64,000 nt of DNA from NCBI RefSeq assembly GCF_009649225.1, contig NZ_WJPP01000001.1, positions 124,001 to 188,000 on the forward strand, written 5' to 3'. Under the pieces are notes generated by a model. That model worked only from the letters and a program-made list of their open reading frames with translations. It did not search any database and was not told the DNA's origin. This DNA is from Spiribacter salilacus (lineage in GTDB: Bacteria; Pseudomonadota; Gammaproteobacteria; Nitrococcales; Nitrococcaceae). Positions 28,389 through 63,906 of the stretch are shown here, one piece after another. Numbering within the stretch: the first letter of the stretch is position 1; the number at the start of each line of letters is the position of its first letter. The position numbers were made by a program, and so were the translations under genes.

Positions 28389-28853
28389 TTACCAGCGGTA
28401 TTTGTCCCAGAGTTCTGGATTCGCCCAATGCCGAGGGTTAAGCCAATCAGGGGTGACTTTGTAGTTATCGATATCAAATTGGTACCAATGCCGATCGCCG
28501 GACGCATCTTCGCTATGCCCAATCTGATGAAATCCTAGACTCATTAACACTTGCCGATTGAGCGCACGGCTTTCATTAACAGGACCAGCAACCACCACAC
28601 GGTCAGCGTACACGTCACGCAGCCGCCCTGTGATCAGTGCCGCCTCAGCGTTGGGAATCGACGCTTCAGCGTCAATCACGGCCAGTTGCGCACGTGGCGC
28701 ACTGTCGATGTTACGCCAAGCAGCGTCGCCTGTTGCATGCCAAAGCGTTGGTCCTTGTGACGCGTCAAGAAAACGCGAATCATCGCTGACCAAGATTAAG
28801 GTTTCGGGACGCGTTTCTTCTAATAGTCGTTCAAAGGCAATCAAAGTACTCAC
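28389..28853 (-). CDS. Conserved protein, DUF6231-like, translation-coupled to ParA
   Basis: A 154-residue protein. It resembles proteins annotated DUF6231 in Pseudomonas and relatives; I recognise the layout rather than any motif. Visible features are TLILVSDDSRFL near the N-terminus, a middle part AQLAVIDAEASIPNAEAALI that looks like one side of a Rossmann-type sheet, LNRQVLMSLGFHQIG, and a Trp-rich tail (WYQFDIDNYKVTPDWLNPRHW). It contains no catalytic signature I can name. The GTG start overlaps the parA stop (GTGA), so both are made from one message. The coupling suggests a shared role, but none is known. Confidence 0.6.
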   Translation of the reverse strand: MSTLIAFERLLEETRPETLILVSDDSRFLDASQGPTLWHATGDAAWRNIDSAPRAQLAVIDAEASIPNAEAALITGRLRDVYADRVVVAGPVNESRALNRQVLMSLGFHQIGHSEDASGDRHWYQFDIDNYKVTPDWLNPRHWANPELWDKYRW

Positions 28854-29617
28854 AGGGCTTCCAAATTGGCGTGCAACCTTTTGTACTCTTCCGTCAGTTT
28901 GTGTTTGGGCGCAAGTGTAATCAACGGTTTGCCGGCTTGATGAGACTCCCTAACCTTGACCGATGCAGAGAGGAACGGCTCAAGGACACGATGCCCGGCT
29001 GCATGAAGCTCTTCAATCAGCGCCGCAGGCAGGCGAGCTCGCGATTGAAACTGGTTAACAATGACGCCCTCAACCGACAGCCCCTGATTATGGTCGGCTT
29101 GTAGTTCCCGTACGTTTGCCATCAGTTCGTCAATCGCTTGTCGCGCGAAGGCGTCACAATCAAAAGGAATTAAACACCGATCAGCCGCAATCAGCGCAGA
29201 GCGCGTATAAAAGTTCAAGGCAGGCGGTGTGTCGATATAAATGCGATCGTAGCCCTCGAGCGCTGAGAGGGCGTCTCGTAGCTTGTAGATCTTATAGCGA
29301 GACTCTAAGCGCCCATGCAAAGTGTCTAATGCTTCATGAGCGGGCATGAGATCGAGGTTTTCAAGCGGAGTGGGGTGAATAAAACTCGAAAGCTCCCGCG
29401 GGTAAATCCGAAAGCTCAAGGTGTCTTCAAAATAGCCTGCCACGGTTTGGTCGCTGTCCGATATCGGTTCAGAGCGAAGGTAATGGCTGGCATTGCACTG
29501 CGCATCGAGGTCAATAACCAGTGTTTTGAGCCCCTGGTTTGCGCTGATTGCGGCGAGATTGCAGGTAATTGTCGACTTTCCGACCCCACCTTTTTGATTA
29601 AATACCACCCGAATCAT
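28850..29617 (-). CDS. ParA-family ATPase (orphan)
   Basis: A MinD/ParA-type deviant Walker ATPase of 255 residues. The ATG at 29617 has AGGAG 7 bp upstream and starts MIRVVFNQKGGVGKSTITCN, with the signature Lys before the P-loop. Walker A' is TLVIDLDAQCNASHY and the switch region is YIDTPPALNFYT. Such ATPases position plasmids, chromosomes or protein clusters by ATP-driven dimerisation on DNA or membrane. No ParB or centromere-like repeats are seen nearby; the only linked gene is the small DUF6231-like one. Chromosomal orphan ParAs of this kind occur in Pseudomonas with unknown cargo. It is divergent from pyrD by 53 bp. Confidence 0.85.
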   Translation of the reverse strand: MIRVVFNQKGGVGKSTITCNLAAISANQGLKTLVIDLDAQCNASHYLRSEPISDSDQTVAGYFEDTLSFRIYPRELSSFIHPTPLENLDLMPAHEALDTLHGRLESRYKIYKLRDALSALEGYDRIYIDTPPALNFYTRSALIAADRCLIPFDCDAFARQAIDELMANVRELQADHNQGLSVEGVIVNQFQSRARLPAALIEELHAAGHRVLEPFLSASVKVRESHQAGKPLITLAPKHKLTEEYKRLHANLEAL

Positions 29618-29670
29618 TCTTCCACTCCTGTTATCATCCTTGCTGATTCGATACATATGAGTCTAGGCGG

Positions 29671-30720
29671 ATGTTGTTCTCCTTAACAAGGCGTTTACTG
29701 TTTTTATTGCCTCCAGAGGTTGCGCATGACTTCTCGATGGCCACCCTCGATGGTGCCCAAAAGCTCGGTTTAATGCGCCTTGCCGCTAATCCCGTGAAAG
29801 CCCCCGTTCAATTGTTGGGGCTTACCTTTCAAAATCGCGTCGGTCTGGCTGCTGGGCTGGATAAAAACGCAGATCACATTGGCGGGTTAGCCCAGCTAGG
29901 GTTTGGGTTTCTGGAAGTGGGCACCGTTACGCCAAAACCTCAGCCCGGAAACGATCGGCCAAGGCTATTTCGTATCCCAGAGCGACAGGCATTAATCAAT
30001 CGCATGGGGTTTAATAACAAAGGCGTTGATCACTTGGTCGAGCAACTGGCAACCAAACCCAGGCCGAGCATCCCGATTGGGATTAATATCGGCAAAAACC
30101 GCAATACCAGCAATGAGGAAGCTTTGGGTGACTATCTGCATTGCCTAGAGGCGCTCTATGAAGCGGCTGACTACATCACCGTCAATCTCTCCTCACCCAA
30201 TACCCCTGGGTTGCGGGCGCTTCAGGAAGGCCAAGCCCTACAAAATCTGGTTGCTGGGTTGATGCAAAAGCGAACAGCAATGGCTGAGAAGCTAGGGCGT
30301 TGCGTTCCCCTATTGGTCAAAATCGCCCCAGATATTGATCCAACGCCGTTAACTGAACTGGCCGACACCCTCCTTGAGGCCGGCGTTGATGGCATTATCG
30401 CGACCAACACCACGCTTGATCGGCAGGGTGTGGCCGGTTGTAAGCATGCTGAAGAAGTGGGCGGATTGAGCGGACAACCTTTGACTGAGAAATCAACTGA
30501 TATTGTTCGGAAGTTGCGGGCCCATATTGGTGATAACTGTGTATTGATTGCAGCGGGTGGTATTGCCAGCGCTAAAGATGCCCTTGATAAGGTGAACGCA
30601 GGCGCTGACTTAGTGCAAATTTACACTGGCTTAATTTATCGCGGCCCATCGGTTGTTAGCGAATCGGCATTGGCTCTTGCAAACATGCCTTGTGAATCTG
30701 GCCATTCATCGTCAAAATAG
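29671..30720 (+). CDS. pyrD: Dihydroorotate dehydrogenase (quinone), class 2
   Basis: PyrD oxidises dihydroorotate to orotate and passes electrons to quinone at the inner membrane. The 349 residues (E. coli 336) begin with the amphipathic N-terminal helix typical of class 2 enzymes (MLFSLTRRLLFLLPPEVAHDF). VGLAAGLDKNADHIGG, FGFLEVGTVTPKPQPGN, RLFRIPERQALINRMGFNN and VNLSSPNTPGLR follow, the last including the catalytic Ser region. FMN contacts are in IIATNTTLDR and IAAGGIASA. The gene ends 8 bp before tRNA-Ser. Confidence 0.96.
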   Translation: MLFSLTRRLLFLLPPEVAHDFSMATLDGAQKLGLMRLAANPVKAPVQLLGLTFQNRVGLAAGLDKNADHIGGLAQLGFGFLEVGTVTPKPQPGNDRPRLFRIPERQALINRMGFNNKGVDHLVEQLATKPRPSIPIGINIGKNRNTSNEEALGDYLHCLEALYEAADYITVNLSSPNTPGLRALQEGQALQNLVAGLMQKRTAMAEKLGRCVPLLVKIAPDIDPTPLTELADTLLEAGVDGIIATNTTLDRQGVAGCKHAEEVGGLSGQPLTEKSTDIVRKLRAHIGDNCVLIAAGGIASAKDALDKVNAGADLVQIYTGLIYRGPSVVSESALALANMPCESGHSSSK

Positions 30721-30728
30721 CGATCTTC

Positions 30729-30818
30729 GGAGAGGTGGCAGAGTGGTCGAATGCGGCGGACTTGAAATCCGTTGAGCCCTCACAGGCTCCGGGGGTTCGA
30801 ATCCCTCCCTCTCCGCCA
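30729..30818 (+). tRNA. tRNA-Ser (anticodon UGA)
   Basis: The 90-nt sequence folds as a serine tRNA. The acceptor stem GGAGAGG pairs with CCTCTCC, with discriminator G and an encoded CCA at 30816-30818. A D arm with TGGTCGAAT is present, and the anticodon loop CTTGAAA gives anticodon TGA. The variable arm is long, as in class II tRNAs (GAGCCCTCACAGGCTC), and the T arm is GGGGGTTCGAATCCC. It lies just after pyrD in the same orientation and is followed by a terminator and tandem repeats carrying its 3' end. Confidence 0.97.
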
Positions 30819-30975
30819 GGTATAAAAAGGCCCCCGCTGGGGGTTTTTTTATAACTGATGAAAGTGTGTTCGAACCCCCGGTAACGAATAAGGGTTCGAC
30901 TAATTGCCGAAGGCAATTAGGACACCGAGCGAAGCGAGGGGCCCGCAGGGTGAGGGGCGTGAGCCCCGAATCAAT
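30803..30975 (+). repeat. tRNA-Ser-linked 173-bp tandem repeat, copy 1
   Basis: This copy begins inside the tRNA with its last 16 nt (CCCTCCCTCTCCGCCA) and repeats with a period of exactly 173 bp. In order it holds the tRNA 3' end, a terminator (30824-30850), a 13-nt inverted copy of the tRNA T-arm segment (30869-30881), the hairpin CTAATTGCC-GAA-GGCAATTAG (30900-30920), and a GGGGC-GTGA-GCCCC hairpin with a GNRA-type loop near its end. The design recalls the rtT repeats behind E. coli tyrT. Confidence 0.9.
30824..30850 (+). terminator. Intrinsic terminator of tRNA-Ser (repeat copy 1)
   Basis: CCCCC (30831-30835), loop GCT, GGGGG (30839-30843), followed by seven T and preceded by five A. The first of three terminators, one per repeat copy. 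Confidence 0.85.
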
Positions 30976-31148
30976 CCCTCCCTCTCCGCCAGGTATAAAA
31001 AGGGCCCCGCTGGGGCTTTTTTTATACCTGATGAAAGTGTGTTCGAACCCCCGGTAACCAATAAGGGTTCGACTAATTGCCGAAGGCAATTAGGACACCG
31101 AGCGAAGCGAGGGGCCCGAAGGGTGAGGGGCGTGAGCCCCGAATCAAT
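30976..31148 (+). repeat. tRNA-Ser-linked 173-bp tandem repeat, copy 2
   Basis: Nearly identical to copy 1 through the non-tRNA part: one G/C change in the GGTAAC-GAATAA stretch, one C/A change near GGGCCC, and a few changes at the terminator. It again starts with the 16-nt tRNA 3' end including CCA (30976-30991), but lacks the rest of the tRNA, so it cannot make a functional tRNA. The hairpin CTAATTGCC-GAA-GGCAATTAG recurs at 31073-31093. Confidence 0.9.
30997..31023 (+). terminator. Intrinsic terminator in repeat copy 2
   Basis: GCCCC (31004-31008), loop GCT, GGGGC (31012-31016), then seven T. Compared with copy 1 the outer C-G pair has become G-C, a change on both strands of the stem that preserves pairing. 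Confidence 0.82.
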
Positions 31149-31227
31149 CCCTCCCTCTCCGCCAGGTATAAAAAGGCCCCCATTGGGGGTTTTTTTATAC
31201 CTGATGAAAGTGTGTTCGAACCCCCGG
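31149..31227 (+). repeat. tRNA-Ser-linked tandem repeat, partial copy 3
   Basis: The first 79 bp of the unit: tRNA 3' end, terminator and inverted T-arm segment (31215-31227). Identity stops at 31227, eight bases before the stop codon of the following minus-strand gene. Confidence 0.88.
31170..31196 (+). terminator. Intrinsic terminator in repeat copy 3
   Basis: CCCCC (31177-31181), loop ATT, GGGGG (31185-31189), then seven T. The stem equals copy 1 but the loop differs. On the opposite strand the A-run gives a possible minus-strand terminator for the convergent beta-barrel gene. Confidence 0.82.
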
Positions 31228-31234
31228 GAGGCAA

Positions 31235-31816
31235 TTAAAAACGATATTCGAGGCTGGCCGAAAAGCTAGGCTCGTAGCCAAGCCCATCAAAATCTTGGCC
31301 AAAGATAGACTGACTACTACTGCCGAAGCTATTTGAAGCGGTGCTGGAGGGGTCATCTAGGGCTTCAAACGTGAGCCCGAGATCTAAAGAGATCCCAAGC
31401 CGGTTTTGTTGATCGAGCTGATTATCCCAGCCTAAACCAACATAGGTGCGGGTTGAGTAACTGTTTGAGCTGCCAACATTGAGCTCGTTACCCGAAAAGA
31501 TCTGATCGCCATACATGGCGCCGCCGGTTAACCGAAAGCCATTGTCGGTAAATGACCAATCTACCAGCGCGGATAGAACCACGGGTTTATCTAAAAGGCC
31601 AGCGGCCTCAGCCTCGCGAACGTGCTTTTCGGTTAATGTGTCGTCACCATTCACACCAAAACGTATGTCTAGCTTTTCGTTCAAGCGGGAGGTGAGTTCG
31701 AGCTCAGGCTGCAGCCCAAGTGTCCAATCAGCAGATTCCGCAGCGGCGGGCATAGCAAACCCTCCGGCGGTAATCACCAGTGCAATACCAACTGTTTTGC
31801 TGACTTTCCAATCCAT
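31235..31816 (-). CDS. Outer-membrane beta-barrel protein of unknown function
   Basis: A 193-residue exported protein. With ATG 31816 it has a signal peptide (MDWKVSKTVGIALVITAGG ending near AAA/ES). The mature part has alternating hydrophobic strands (LGLQPELELTSRLNEKLDIRFG, VVLSALVDWSF, RTYVGLGWDNQ, LGISLDLGLTFEA) and ends SASLEYRF, with the terminal Phe required for BAM-dependent insertion. A longer start at TTG 31834 is possible. It resembles small porin-like YfaZ/TorF-type barrels, but I cannot assign a family. It stands directly beside the tRNA repeats and convergent to them. Confidence 0.7.
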   Translation of the reverse strand: MDWKVSKTVGIALVITAGGFAMPAAAESADWTLGLQPELELTSRLNEKLDIRFGVNGDDTLTEKHVREAEAAGLLDKPVVLSALVDWSFTDNGFRLTGGAMYGDQIFSGNELNVGSSNSYSTRTYVGLGWDNQLDQQNRLGISLDLGLTFEALDDPSSTASNSFGSSSQSIFGQDFDGLGYEPSFSASLEYRF

Positions 31817-31847
31817 GGGCCTATTATTAACCAAGAATCAGAAAATG

Positions 31848-32096
31848 TCATTTCTGATAACGGCTTTTCCATGTTTCATAGGGCATTCCATAAATCAATT
31901 CGCGCGCTTGCGCTTGATCAATTGGAATGCCGCGTTCCGCGGCGGCTTCGGCGTACCACTTCGATAAGCAATTCCGACAGAACCCCGCCAAATTCATCAG
32001 GTCTATATTCTGAACATCAACGTTATATTGTAAATGTTTTACTAAACGGCGGAATGCGGCGGCTTCTAGCTCGATTTTATCAGCGTCATTAGACAT
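31848..32096 (-). CDS. DUF1244 domain protein
   Basis: An 82-residue protein recognisable as DUF1244 from FRRLVKHLQYNVDVQNIDLM, then NLAGFCRNCLSKWYAEAA and the end YGMPYETWKSRYQ. The CRNC pair is a conserved Cys couple that may bind a metal or be redox active. The family is common in proteobacteria with unknown function. It precedes the beta-barrel gene by 31 bp on the same strand, so the two may be cotranscribed; it is divergent from the L,D-transpeptidase. Confidence 0.85.
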   Translation of the reverse strand: MSNDADKIELEAAAFRRLVKHLQYNVDVQNIDLMNLAGFCRNCLSKWYAEAAAERGIPIDQAQARELIYGMPYETWKSRYQK

Positions 32097-32148
32097 AAAT
32101 TGATACTCTCGTGAACTGAAACGACATGATAGTGGGGAGCACTAGTCA

Positions 32149-33135
32149 ATGAGTCAAGCGAAACAACGAGCCAAAATGGTGCTGTTGGCCCTATTAGCGG
32201 GTTTACCATTCGCGGTGCAGGCTAATACCTTTTTGCTACCGCCCGATGGCATCGATGTGGTGGGCGAGATTCAGACGGTTGTGGCGCAGCATGACGACAC
32301 ATTGCTTGATTTAGGCCGACAATATGGAGTGGGGTACGAGGCTATGCGCCGCGCCAATCCTGATGTTGATGTCTGGCTGCCAGGCGAAGGAACCGAGGTG
32401 ACCCTGCCCACCCAATTTGTACTTCCAGATACAGAAAGACAAGGCATTGTTATCAACATTGCTGAGATGCGTCTTTATTACTTCCCAGAGCCACAACCCA
32501 ACGCCGACCCGGTTGTAGAGACCTATGCAATTAGCGTGGGTCGAATGGATTGGTCTACGCCGCTTGGCGCCTCTAAAATCACCTCTAAGGATGCCAACCC
32601 TACTTGGTTTCCTCCTCAGTCGATTTTAGAAGAGCGGGCAGCACAAGGGCGCCCTCTGCCAAAAGCTGTGCCTCCAGGGCCTGATAACCCGTTAGGAAAA
32701 CATCGCATTCGCTTGGATATCCCGGGTGGTGCGTATTTGATTCATGGCACGAATGATCCCAGAGGAATTGGGATGCGCGTGACCCATGGTTGTATTCGGA
32801 TGTTTCCAGAGGATGTCGAATCTTTGTTTGATCGGGTTCCCGTTGGCACATCGGTACAAATCGTTAACCAACCGGTAAAGGCGGGGTGGCTAGATGATGA
32901 CTTGTATGTTGAAGCCCACCCAATTCTTCCTCCTGAGGCGGAAAATGCCTTTGATCCGGTGAAACCGCCAACATTAAATGATGCGGCATTAACGATTGCA
33001 GGGCTTATTGATCAGCGTGATGTGCGGATTGATCATGGTCGGCTCAAGGAGGCCGTTGATGCGGCAGTGGGAATGCCGCAAAAAGTCAGTCGGTCAGAGC
33101 CCATAAAAAAAGCCCTGCTGGAGCAGGGCTTTTGA
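32149..33135 (+). CDS. L,D-transpeptidase (ErfK/YbiS-like) with LysM-type N-terminus
   Basis: A periplasmic YkuD-domain enzyme of 328 residues. A signal peptide (about 1-25, MSQAKQRAKMVLLALLAG...VQA) is followed by a LysM-like segment (VVAQHDDTLLDLGRQYGVG...PGEGTEVTLP, about 45-90). The YkuD domain (about 100-245) has GIVINIAEMRLYYFP, STPLGASKITSK, LIHGTNDPRGIG and the catalytic THGCIRM. In E. coli, YbiS, ErfK and YcfS link the C-terminal Lys of Lpp to diaminopimelate, and an lpp homologue follows here convergently. GGGGAG lies 9 bp before the ATG. The last codons double as a terminator hairpin. Confidence 0.92.
   Translation: MSQAKQRAKMVLLALLAGLPFAVQANTFLLPPDGIDVVGEIQTVVAQHDDTLLDLGRQYGVGYEAMRRANPDVDVWLPGEGTEVTLPTQFVLPDTERQGIVINIAEMRLYYFPEPQPNADPVVETYAISVGRMDWSTPLGASKITSKDANPTWFPPQSILEERAAQGRPLPKAVPPGPDNPLGKHRIRLDIPGGAYLIHGTNDPRGIGMRVTHGCIRMFPEDVESLFDRVPVGTSVQIVNQPVKAGWLDDDLYVEAHPILPPEAENAFDPVKPPTLNDAALTIAGLIDQRDVRIDHGRLKEAVDAAVGMPQKVSRSEPIKKALLEQGF
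33108..33133. terminator. Bidirectional terminator inside the last codons of the L,D-transpeptidase
   Basis: AAAAAAA followed by GCCCTGC (33112-33118), loop TGGA, GCAGGGC (33123-33129) and TTTT. The stem spans the codons for ALLEQG just before the TGA stop at 33133-33135. It faces convergent lpp, so A-run and T-run can serve both strands. Confidence 0.75.
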
Positions 33136-61603: not shown

Positions 61604-63906
61604 TCAGTGGGCAGACGCGGCCGTCCTGACCAGCGGCGCGGGTCACTCGCCTCGGCAGGCGGTGTTGGAGCTACAGGTTCCTCTGCAGCAGGGCTTTTCT
61701 TGACCTCTGCGGGTTTCTCCGCCGCAGGCGCCGGCGCTTTCTGAGTTTCGGTTCCAGTTTCCGCCTCGGCCTGACTGTCTGCCGAAGCCGTTTCTGTTGA
61801 AGGGGTTTCCTCGCCATTGGGGCGGCGACGGCGGCGTCCACCTCGGCGACCCCTTCGGGTACGGCCTGTGCCAGCAGGCTTTTCGCCCTCTGCTGCTGGC
61901 GTTGCATCGGCGGCGGGGGCTGCTTCAACTTTTTCGGCCTTTTCAGCTTTTTCAGCTTTTTCAGCTTTTTCAGCCTTTTCGGGCTTTTCTGGCTTTTCTG
62001 ATTTTTCTGGCTTTGTCTCGTCCGTACTAGAGGTACGTCGTGAACCACCACGGCTTCGCCGCTGACCACTGCTACCCGTGCTGCGAGTATTACCGCTCCC
62101 ACTGCGACGGCGGCGATTGCCGCTTTGAGCCGTTTTCTCTCCCGAGGCACCAGACTCTTCTGTGGTTTTAGTCTCCGCAGCAGTTTCCGTTGCGCTCTGC
62201 GCATCGTCACCGCTTACTAAGCGCCGCAACCAACCCAAAAGCCCCGGGCCATGCGGCGTTTCGGAGGCCTCGGTGGCGGTTGCCTTTGCAGACGGCACTG
62301 GGGGGCCAGGCCGAATGCTTTTTACCGCTGGCGTCTCAGCGCGAGCTCGTTCTGCGGTGAGGAGGGTCTCAGCAACGCTTGGGCCTTCATCTTCGTCAGT
62401 CAGCTTGTAACTCGTCTGTTCCTCGGCATCCTCGTCACTCCGCAGACGCTGCAATTCATAGTTCGGTGTTTCTAGGCGACGATTCGGGATGAGTAAAACC
62501 TCAATGCCATTCCGCTCTTCAATCGCCCCTAAGATGCTGCGCTTTTCGTTGAGTAGAAACGTTGCAACATCAACCGGCAATTGGGCAAGCACTTTCCCGG
62601 TTTTTTCCTTCATTGCCTCTTCTTCGATGATGCGAAGCACCGAGAGCGCTAGCGACTCAACGCTGCGCACTGTGCCTTGACCGCTACAGCGACTGCAAAC
62701 CTCGAGGGCAGACTCGCCCAGCGATGAACGCAAGCGCTGTCTCGACATTTCTAATAGTCCAAACCGAGAAATGCGACCAAGCTGAACCCGTGCACGATCT
62801 TGCTTAACAGCCTCGCGCAGACAGTTTTCGACCTCACGTTGGTTGCGGCTTGGCCCCATATCAATGAAGTCGATGACGATCAGCCCGCCAAGGTCACGAA
62901 GGCGAAGCTGTCGCGCAATCTCTTCGGCGGCCTCGGTATTCGTGCGTAGGGCTGTTTCTTCAATATCGGCGCCTTTGGTGGCACGTGCAGAGTTAATATC
63001 AATCGATATCAACGCCTCGGTGTGGTCAATGACAATGATGCCACCGCTAGGGAGGCGCACCTCACGCTGGAAGGCGGATTCTATTTGGCTTTCGATTTGA
63101 TACCGGCTAAACAGTGGCACCCGGTCATCATAGAACTTTAATTTTTGAAGGTTATGCGGCATAACTTGTTGCACAAACTCACGCGCGCGCTCAAACACTT
63201 CACGATCATCAACCAAAATTTCGCCAATATCGGCGCGAAGGTAATCTCGCAGCGCACGGATAATGACGTTACTTTCTTGATAGACCAAAAAAGGGGCCGG
63301 CTGCTTTTCAACTGCGTTGCCAACCGCCGTCCATAAATTAATGAGATAGTCCAAATCCCATTGCAGCTCTTCACTACTGCGGCCAACGCCGGCAGTGCGA
63401 ACAATTAGCCCCATTCCCTCGGGGATCTCCAGGTCACGAAGCGCATCGCGAATCTCATTGCGCTCTGAACCTTCAATACGACGTGAAACACCCCCAGCGC
63501 GTGGGTTGTTGGGCATCAGGACGAGATACCGCCCAGCCAAACTGACAAACGTGGTTAGTGCTGCGCCTTTATTGCCACGTTCTTCTTTTTCTACTTGAAC
63601 GACAATTTCCTGACCTTCCTTGATCACATCGGCGATAGAGACCTTGGAAAGATCAGTTTTATCAGTAGCTTGGAAGTATTCCTTCGCAATTTCTTTGAAG
63701 GGAAGAAACCCATGGCGCTCAGAGCCATACTGAACAAACGCCGCCTCTAAGCTGGGTTCTACTCGCGTAATGCGGCCTTTATAGATGTTGGCTTTTTTAC
63801 GCTCTCTAGCAGGAGTTTCGATATCCAAATCGAATAGGGATTGGCCATCGACCAGTGCGACACGCAACTCTTCTGGCTGCGTGGCGTTGACTAACATTCT
63901 TTTCAT
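61600..63906 (-). CDS. rne: Ribonuclease E
   Basis: RNase E starts decay of most mRNA and matures rRNA and tRNA. The ATG at 63906 gives [20 protein letters not shown] and 768 residues, against 1061 in E. coli. The catalytic half (to about 500) has the S1 domain ([21 protein letters not shown]), [13 protein letters not shown] with catalytic Asp303, IVIDFIDM with Asp346, and the Zn-link CSRCSGQG with Cys404 and Cys407, all in E. coli register. The C-terminal scaffold is short: a basic Arg-rich stretch ([11 protein letters not shown]), a KPEK/AEK repeat (about 632-660) and a second Arg patch ([11 protein letters not shown]). A longer frame from 63969 is not family-like. No classical enolase-binding motif is recognisable. 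Confidence 0.95.
61930..62012 (-). repeat. rne: In-frame 9-bp repeat array in rne
   Basis: Repeated GAAAAAGCT-type units (plus-strand agcttttt/cagcctttt) encode KPEK then several AEK triplets. The array sits in the disordered part of RNase E; unit length of 9 bp keeps the frame when copy number changes. Confidence 0.75.

Follow-up and report, generated by a model that had tools for sequence, protein, structure and literature searches.

What is the tandem repeat that follows the serine tRNA gene at this locus, and is its likeness to the long-known rtT repeats of E. coli a matter of design or of descent? The window analyzed here is a 64,000-nucleotide stretch of Spiribacter salilacus (GCF_009649225.1, contig NZ_WJPP01000001.1, positions 124,001 to 188,000). 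A sequence-only reading of it proposed that the repeat has the same design as rtT, and that the two belong to a recurring class of tRNA-linked RNA elements. Both proposals hold, and our comparisons support homology, not only analogy. They further show that the core of the unit is a small cluster of four hairpins inserted in a copied T-loop, and that cores of the same family interrupt loops of other RNA genes.

The repeat array behind tRNA-Ser(UGA)

ARAGORN finds an intact tRNA-Ser(UGA) with encoded CCA at 30729–30818 (+), also matched by RF00005, and at the gathering level tRNA is the only Rfam family found in the window. TRF reports a tandem repeat of period 173 with 2.5 copies and 96% matches at 30800–31227. 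The repeat consists of two full units (30819–30991 and 30992–31164, both on the + strand, 173 bp each, starting at the base after CCA) and a partial third unit (31165–31227) that contains only the hairpin, the spacer and the inverted T-arm. The copies are 97% identical when compared in the register 30800–30972 / 30973–31145. The repeated tRNA end is exact over 19 nt (AATCCCTCCCTCTCCGCCA) at 30800, 30973 and 31146, three more than the 16 nt given in the sequence-only reading, and each full unit ends with this copy (30973–30991 and 31146–31164).

Reading one unit 5′ to 3′, the tRNA end is followed at once by a GC-rich, terminator-like hairpin of about 37 nt with a T run (30819–30855, repeated at 30992–31028 and 31165–31201). 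A terminator scan reports three terminator-like sites here, but on the minus strand only (shuffle mean 1.4). After a short spacer comes an inverted copy of the T-arm (TTCGAACCCCCGG at 30869–30881, 31042–31054 and 31215–31227; 13 of 13 positions complementary to tRNA 30789–30801), which the sequence-only reading did not mention. This is followed by AATAAGGGTTCGA, that is, a direct copy of the T-arm 5′ strand and loop (GGGTTCGA at 30892–30899, repeated at 31065–31072). Next is the core insert of 73 nt (74 with an ambiguous A), which begins with CTAATTGCC, ends with CCCCGAATC and contains four conserved hairpins P1–P4 rather than the two noted before (30900–30972 in unit 1 and 31073–31145 in unit 2). 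The unit closes with AATCCC...CCA, the T-arm 3′ strand and acceptor strand of the tRNA. Removing the 73–74 nt closes the T-loop again (TTCGA + ATCC), so the unit holds a copied tRNA 3′ part with an insert in its T-loop. One unit folds better than all 200 shuffles (z −3.06), and a 129-nt part of it less strikingly (z −2.33, with 3 of 200 shuffles as good). Open frames run through the repeat (30712–31089 on the minus strand and 30904–31269 on the plus strand) but are probably spurious, and a hammerhead-like CTGATGA after the terminator is not conserved. The window also contains a short tandem repeat at 61924–62014 with a 9-bp period and multiples of it.

Using BLAST against the window's own assembly, we found the unit behind tRNA-Ser genes for GCU and GGA, and a truncated start (hairpin and part of the inverted T-arm, no core) behind CGA. 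The assembly breaks inside the tRNA-Ser(GGA) repeat; the two contig ends (the starts of C15 and C1) share about 28 nt and probably join there. Among relatives, 31 of 59 match at E 1e-3 or better, including 13 of 13 congeners. Out of 25 loci scanned for tRNAs, 21 contain a tRNA-Ser gene and four (loci L014, L018, L032 and L037) contain no tRNA; for congeners 11 of 13 contain a tRNA-Ser gene. In the window's order the units are 173–190 bp except three shortened ones (95, 146 and 149 bp), with the same order of parts, though the letters change widely, and in the Tyr, Gln and Ser loci examined they range from 117 to 203 bp. The inverted T-arm follows the local tRNA: CCGGGGG, TTCGAGGG, TTCGTGGG or ACCGAGGG variants are met by their own complement. 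Over 38 loci, swapping tRNAs within a genome made the complement shorter in 42 of 50 comparisons, equal in 8 and longer in none; selection for pairing or perfecting of inverted repeats at replication could both do this.

Homology with rtT and distribution of the family

In E. coli K-12, tyrV is followed by three 178-bp units with the same order of parts (GGTTCGA, then hairpins with CCCGAAGGG, then ATCC and the acceptor strand, with the 3′ end copying the tRNA end). The annotated RttR (RF00391) is unit 1 less its first 7 nt and ends at the next CCA. The E. coli units follow tRNA-Tyr instead of tRNA-Ser, the trailer hairpin and most stem letters differ, and of the inverted T-arm mainly the part facing the 3′ strand remains. 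The Rfam RtT model gives matches inside the units of six of six non-E. coli loci tested, with E 2e-4 to 1.8, all below its gathering cut-off of 45 bits; the window array itself is weak (24.4 bits, E 0.6), and the GCU locus of the same genome scores 30.5 bits. In the same scan, Rfam sX4 (a proteobacterial sRNA family) matches below its cut-off over the tRNA-Ser gene and its downstream hairpin in six loci (L067, L001, L002, L068, L072 and L080), and sX4 may itself come from a tRNA-Ser locus.

We then built a covariance model (R1) from 15 tRNA-Ser units of the window's order, without E. coli and cut before the acceptor strand. Of 34 distinct cores, 26, 23 and 15 went into the successive alignments A1, A2 and A3, leaving out other P1 registers, two odd P4 forms, E. 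coli and near copies. R1 finds the three rtT units at E 2e-12 to 1.5e-11 and a fourth, rtT-like unit upstream of tyrV in the tyrT-tyrV spacer at 9e-11 (1577–1658 on the minus strand of the fetched K-12 stretch L082). With five more K-12 stretches, R1 finds the 5S-linked rrB repeat in the rrnB T1-T2 spacer (E 8e-10; 531–618 on the plus strand of stretch L367) and, weakly, four lysT-operon units (E 6e-6 to 4e-5), but nothing in the argX-proM, leuQPV and gshA-yqaB stretches. A second model (R2), built from 140 matches outside the window's genus, returns both window units, at contig 154891–154978 (window 30891–30978, E 1.3e-21) and contig 155064–155151 (window 31064–31151, E 8.5e-22).

These E. 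coli repeats are the published tRNA-linked repeats (TLRs), with 22 copies at 10 loci in K-12 and a 3′ end identical to that of the upstream tRNA or 5S gene (PMC8144298); PMC2658671 and PMC7657543 may also concern the E. coli rtT RNA. TLRs have been known since 1978 and had no known function as of 2021, and the amino-acid-starvation role first given to rtT was later withdrawn (PMC8144298; earlier work cited there: Egan and Landy 1978, Rudd 1999 and Bosl and Kersten 1991/1994). By the TLR definition (an identical 3′ end of 18–19 bp, directly downstream of the RNA gene, 1–5 copies per locus) the window array belongs to this family. It differs from E. coli rtT in its host tRNA and its full inverted T-arm. 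In the passages of PMC8144298 that we consulted, TLRs are described in E. coli and, for rrB, in 31 species of 12 genera of Enterobacterales; insertion in loops and spread over class and phylum are not mentioned there.

RtT itself matches 66 of 369 genomes of the class at E 1e-3 or better (23 over its cut-off), and only E. coli among 14 control genomes. R1 matches 140 of the 369 class genomes. R2 matches 81 of 299 genomes of the phylum at 1e-4 or better, including many of one small-genome family outside the class, with 14 scored copies each in two genomes (G427 and G458) and 8 in a third (G477); the copies fetched from G427 and G458 sit in varied surroundings, in G427 within larger repeats. In E. 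coli there are 1–9 places like the rtT unit per matching genome (4680 of 5426 genomes with a match), though not all need lie in one array.

Out of 170 distinct hits in fetched loci, 132 have a same-strand tRNA within 1 kb upstream and 38 do not, several of the latter being near contig ends or in interrupted tRNAs. The stretches fetched for context were picked by hand from listed matches (sets of 40, 60 and 40 regions, plus 30 loci each from the RtT and R1 scans). The 96 tRNA genes are Ser 47, Arg 22, Gln 13, Tyr 8, Glu 3, Pro 2 and Thr 1, and in 90 of 96 the first match starts 44–115 nt after the tRNA. In a further, named set, 61 of 119 have such a tRNA and 58 do not. The last 16 nt of the tRNA recur after the first core exactly in 56 of 96 genes, with 1–2 changes in 11 (67 of 96 with at most 2 changes), with 3–4 in 4 and with more in 25; with a tRNA of another amino acid these numbers are 0, 0, 2 and 94. 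So the 3′ copy is local where present, and lost or decayed in about a third, decay being our explanation for these 29 genes. Brenneria alni (locus L277, minus strand) has cores in direct tandem with no tRNA seen beside them, and three loci (L210, L235 and L254) have matches on both strands, partly overlapping or abutting.

Insertion sites and structure of the core

Junctions could be resolved for 153 of 281 distinct hits, of which 151 are in T-loops (TTCGA^ATCC in the window) and 2 in anticodon loops. Both models contain T-arm positions at their ends, so the T-loop share is inflated by the search, and 128 junctions stayed unresolved. Ten filled sites were compared with an empty copy in the same locus: two anticodon loops and two D-loops of tRNA-Ser, five T-loops (Ser, Ser, Arg, Arg and Lys), and the 5S rRNA of rrnB, where the T1-T2 spacer is such an element inserted in a copy of the 5S 3′ part. 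The inserts are 70–85 nt, nine of ten begin with C and one with G, seven of ten end in GAGTA or GAGTCA, and each left flank ends in GA. We note that these strings were chosen by hand, with the end placed at GA, and one base of the ends is ambiguous. The D-loop cases differ from the empty copy by one and two bases right of the insert, 5S by one base, and one further locus (L236) by one base. Only five of the ten cases lie outside T-loops, and the D- and anticodon-loop cases are all in tRNA-Ser, in interrupted copies that look like pseudogenes; the interrupted tRNA copies we read have decayed acceptor ends and are probably pseudogenes beside a working copy, which can be misread in annotation. 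Group II introns are probably interrupted as well: in Ectothiorhodospira shaposhnikovii two group II intron matches (RF02001; 5540–5778 and 6828–7066 on the minus strand of locus L256) each span an insert inside the D1–D4 region, and in another locus (L274) a partial match begins at the end of the insert, but no empty intron was found.

RNAalifold on the unrefined alignment A1 predicted only 11 pairs, recovering P4 but not P1–P3. With the structure that we specified, 13 of 25 pairs on 15 MAFFT-aligned rows change on both sides (47 cells as compared to 14.8 in shuffles). On 133 distinct rows aligned to the covariance model (an alignment that leans to its structure), it is 22 of 25 pairs (shuffles 19.3) and 748 cells as compared to 175 in shuffles, while slid controls give at most 142. 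G-T makes up 39 of 3049 cells and A-C 16, whereas the tRNA stems of the same loci have 173 G-T of 3028 (p 3e-22); A-C cannot be compared since the ARAGORN drawing showed no A-C pair at all. P3 is capped by GNA in 220 of 241 units (GNA or GNNA in 222), and such caps may be unusually stable in DNA hairpins. This fits a folded sense strand and, in our reading, DNA-level constraint or palindrome-perfecting more than pure RNA selection.

Interpretation of the locus

We consider it likely, although with clear reservations, that the array is a TLR/rtT locus whose insert belongs to a small mobile hairpin element, like a MITE or REP but of its own family, that enters loops of structured RNA genes between GA and A. 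Once an interrupted tRNA 3′ part stands behind an intact tRNA, the repeated 3′ ends would let recombination expand, contract and homogenize the array, so that tRNA-derived parts stay local while the core is shared. The units lie in the tRNA transcript behind a terminator-like hairpin, and read-through probably yields RNA that ends at the repeated CCA, as annotated for E. coli rttR (another RNA from the 3′ trailer of a tRNA transcript is 3′ETS-leuZ, which acts by pairing with RyhB and RybB; PMC8144298). Mobility, the role of recombination, RNA production and processing are inferred, without direct tests of mobility or RNA. No enzyme was identified, with only Y1 transposases searched for; these are present in 9 of 16 carrier genomes and absent from 7, the window's included. 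In the window genus, 7 of 16 cores (those fitting a strict pattern) are nearest to their own genome, 6 to the same anticodon elsewhere and 3 to neither, so movement within the genus is not proved. It is slightly more likely than not that rtT and the TLRs are one habitat of a previously unrecognized mobile element of only 70–85 bp, with four hairpins and no gene, that invades tRNA T-, D- and anticodon loops, 5S rRNA and group II introns. Because it enters loops of the folded sense strand, such an element may move as folded RNA (by a reverse-splicing-like step followed by copying into DNA) or as folded single-stranded DNA; the scarcity of G-U pairs favors DNA or palindrome-perfecting.

Other explanations fit less well. 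A chance tandem duplication or scar, kept alike because recent, has only the 96–97% identity of the copies in its favor and is refuted by the matches in congeners and across the class, the same order of parts and the compensatory changes. Tandem 173-bp circles integrated by a tyrosine recombinase at the tRNA 3′ end would account for the identity block, the nearly constant unit length in the window's order and the tandem arrays. However, we regard this as very unlikely: Pfam found no integrase among the four neighboring ORFs at 28850–33135, the only ones searched (a ParA-type ATPase, a dihydroorotate dehydrogenase upstream of the array, an ORF without a match downstream, and an L,D-transpeptidase), the repeated tRNA part, where preserved, follows the local tRNA for Arg, Glu and Pro too, and cores in D- and anticodon loops carry no such attachment core. 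It is also unlikely, though not excluded, that the inverted T-arm makes the array a switch on tRNA maturation, pairing with the tRNA T-arm in read-through transcripts and spoiling the tRNA unless the unit folds or is cleaved off. The complement is mostly 13–21 nt and follows the local tRNA variant, but it is under 10 nt in four of the 38 loci, in Tyr and Gln types mostly the 3′-strand part remains (GGAT-GAGA-ACC) and rather closes the unit itself, and perfecting of imperfect inverted repeats at replication would give the same covariation.

A more serious, but still tentative, alternative is that the units are kept by selection as small regulatory RNAs made in step with tRNA or rRNA synthesis, for example as sponges of CsrA or Hfq, with mobility being old and irrelevant. 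E. coli rrA/B/F are made as about 173- and 115-nt RNAs and bind Hfq and CsrA in vitro (PMC8144298), covariation is strong over a class, and three of the four tRNA-Ser genes found in the window genome carry a core. A(N)GGA occurs in the P1 loop of 59 and the P4 loop of 87 of 241 units (both in 46). CsrA was found in 16 of 16 carriers examined and, in the phylum sample, in 74 of 81 genomes with the element as compared to 106 of 218 without (counted by hand), although this association ignores phylogeny and seven of 81 carriers show no CsrA match (some are incomplete genomes). On the other hand, the window cores have GAA and GTGA loops and no A(N)GGA loop, P3 is capped as described above, the 19 tRNA-type E. 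coli repeats scored below 0.01 as CsrA binders, and changing rrA/B/F levels had only modest effects (PMC8144298). We did not retain a CsrA sponge as the general role. In the window's genome, csrA lies directly upstream of tRNA-Ser(GCU) and its repeat (contig C1, 263426–263581, minus strand).
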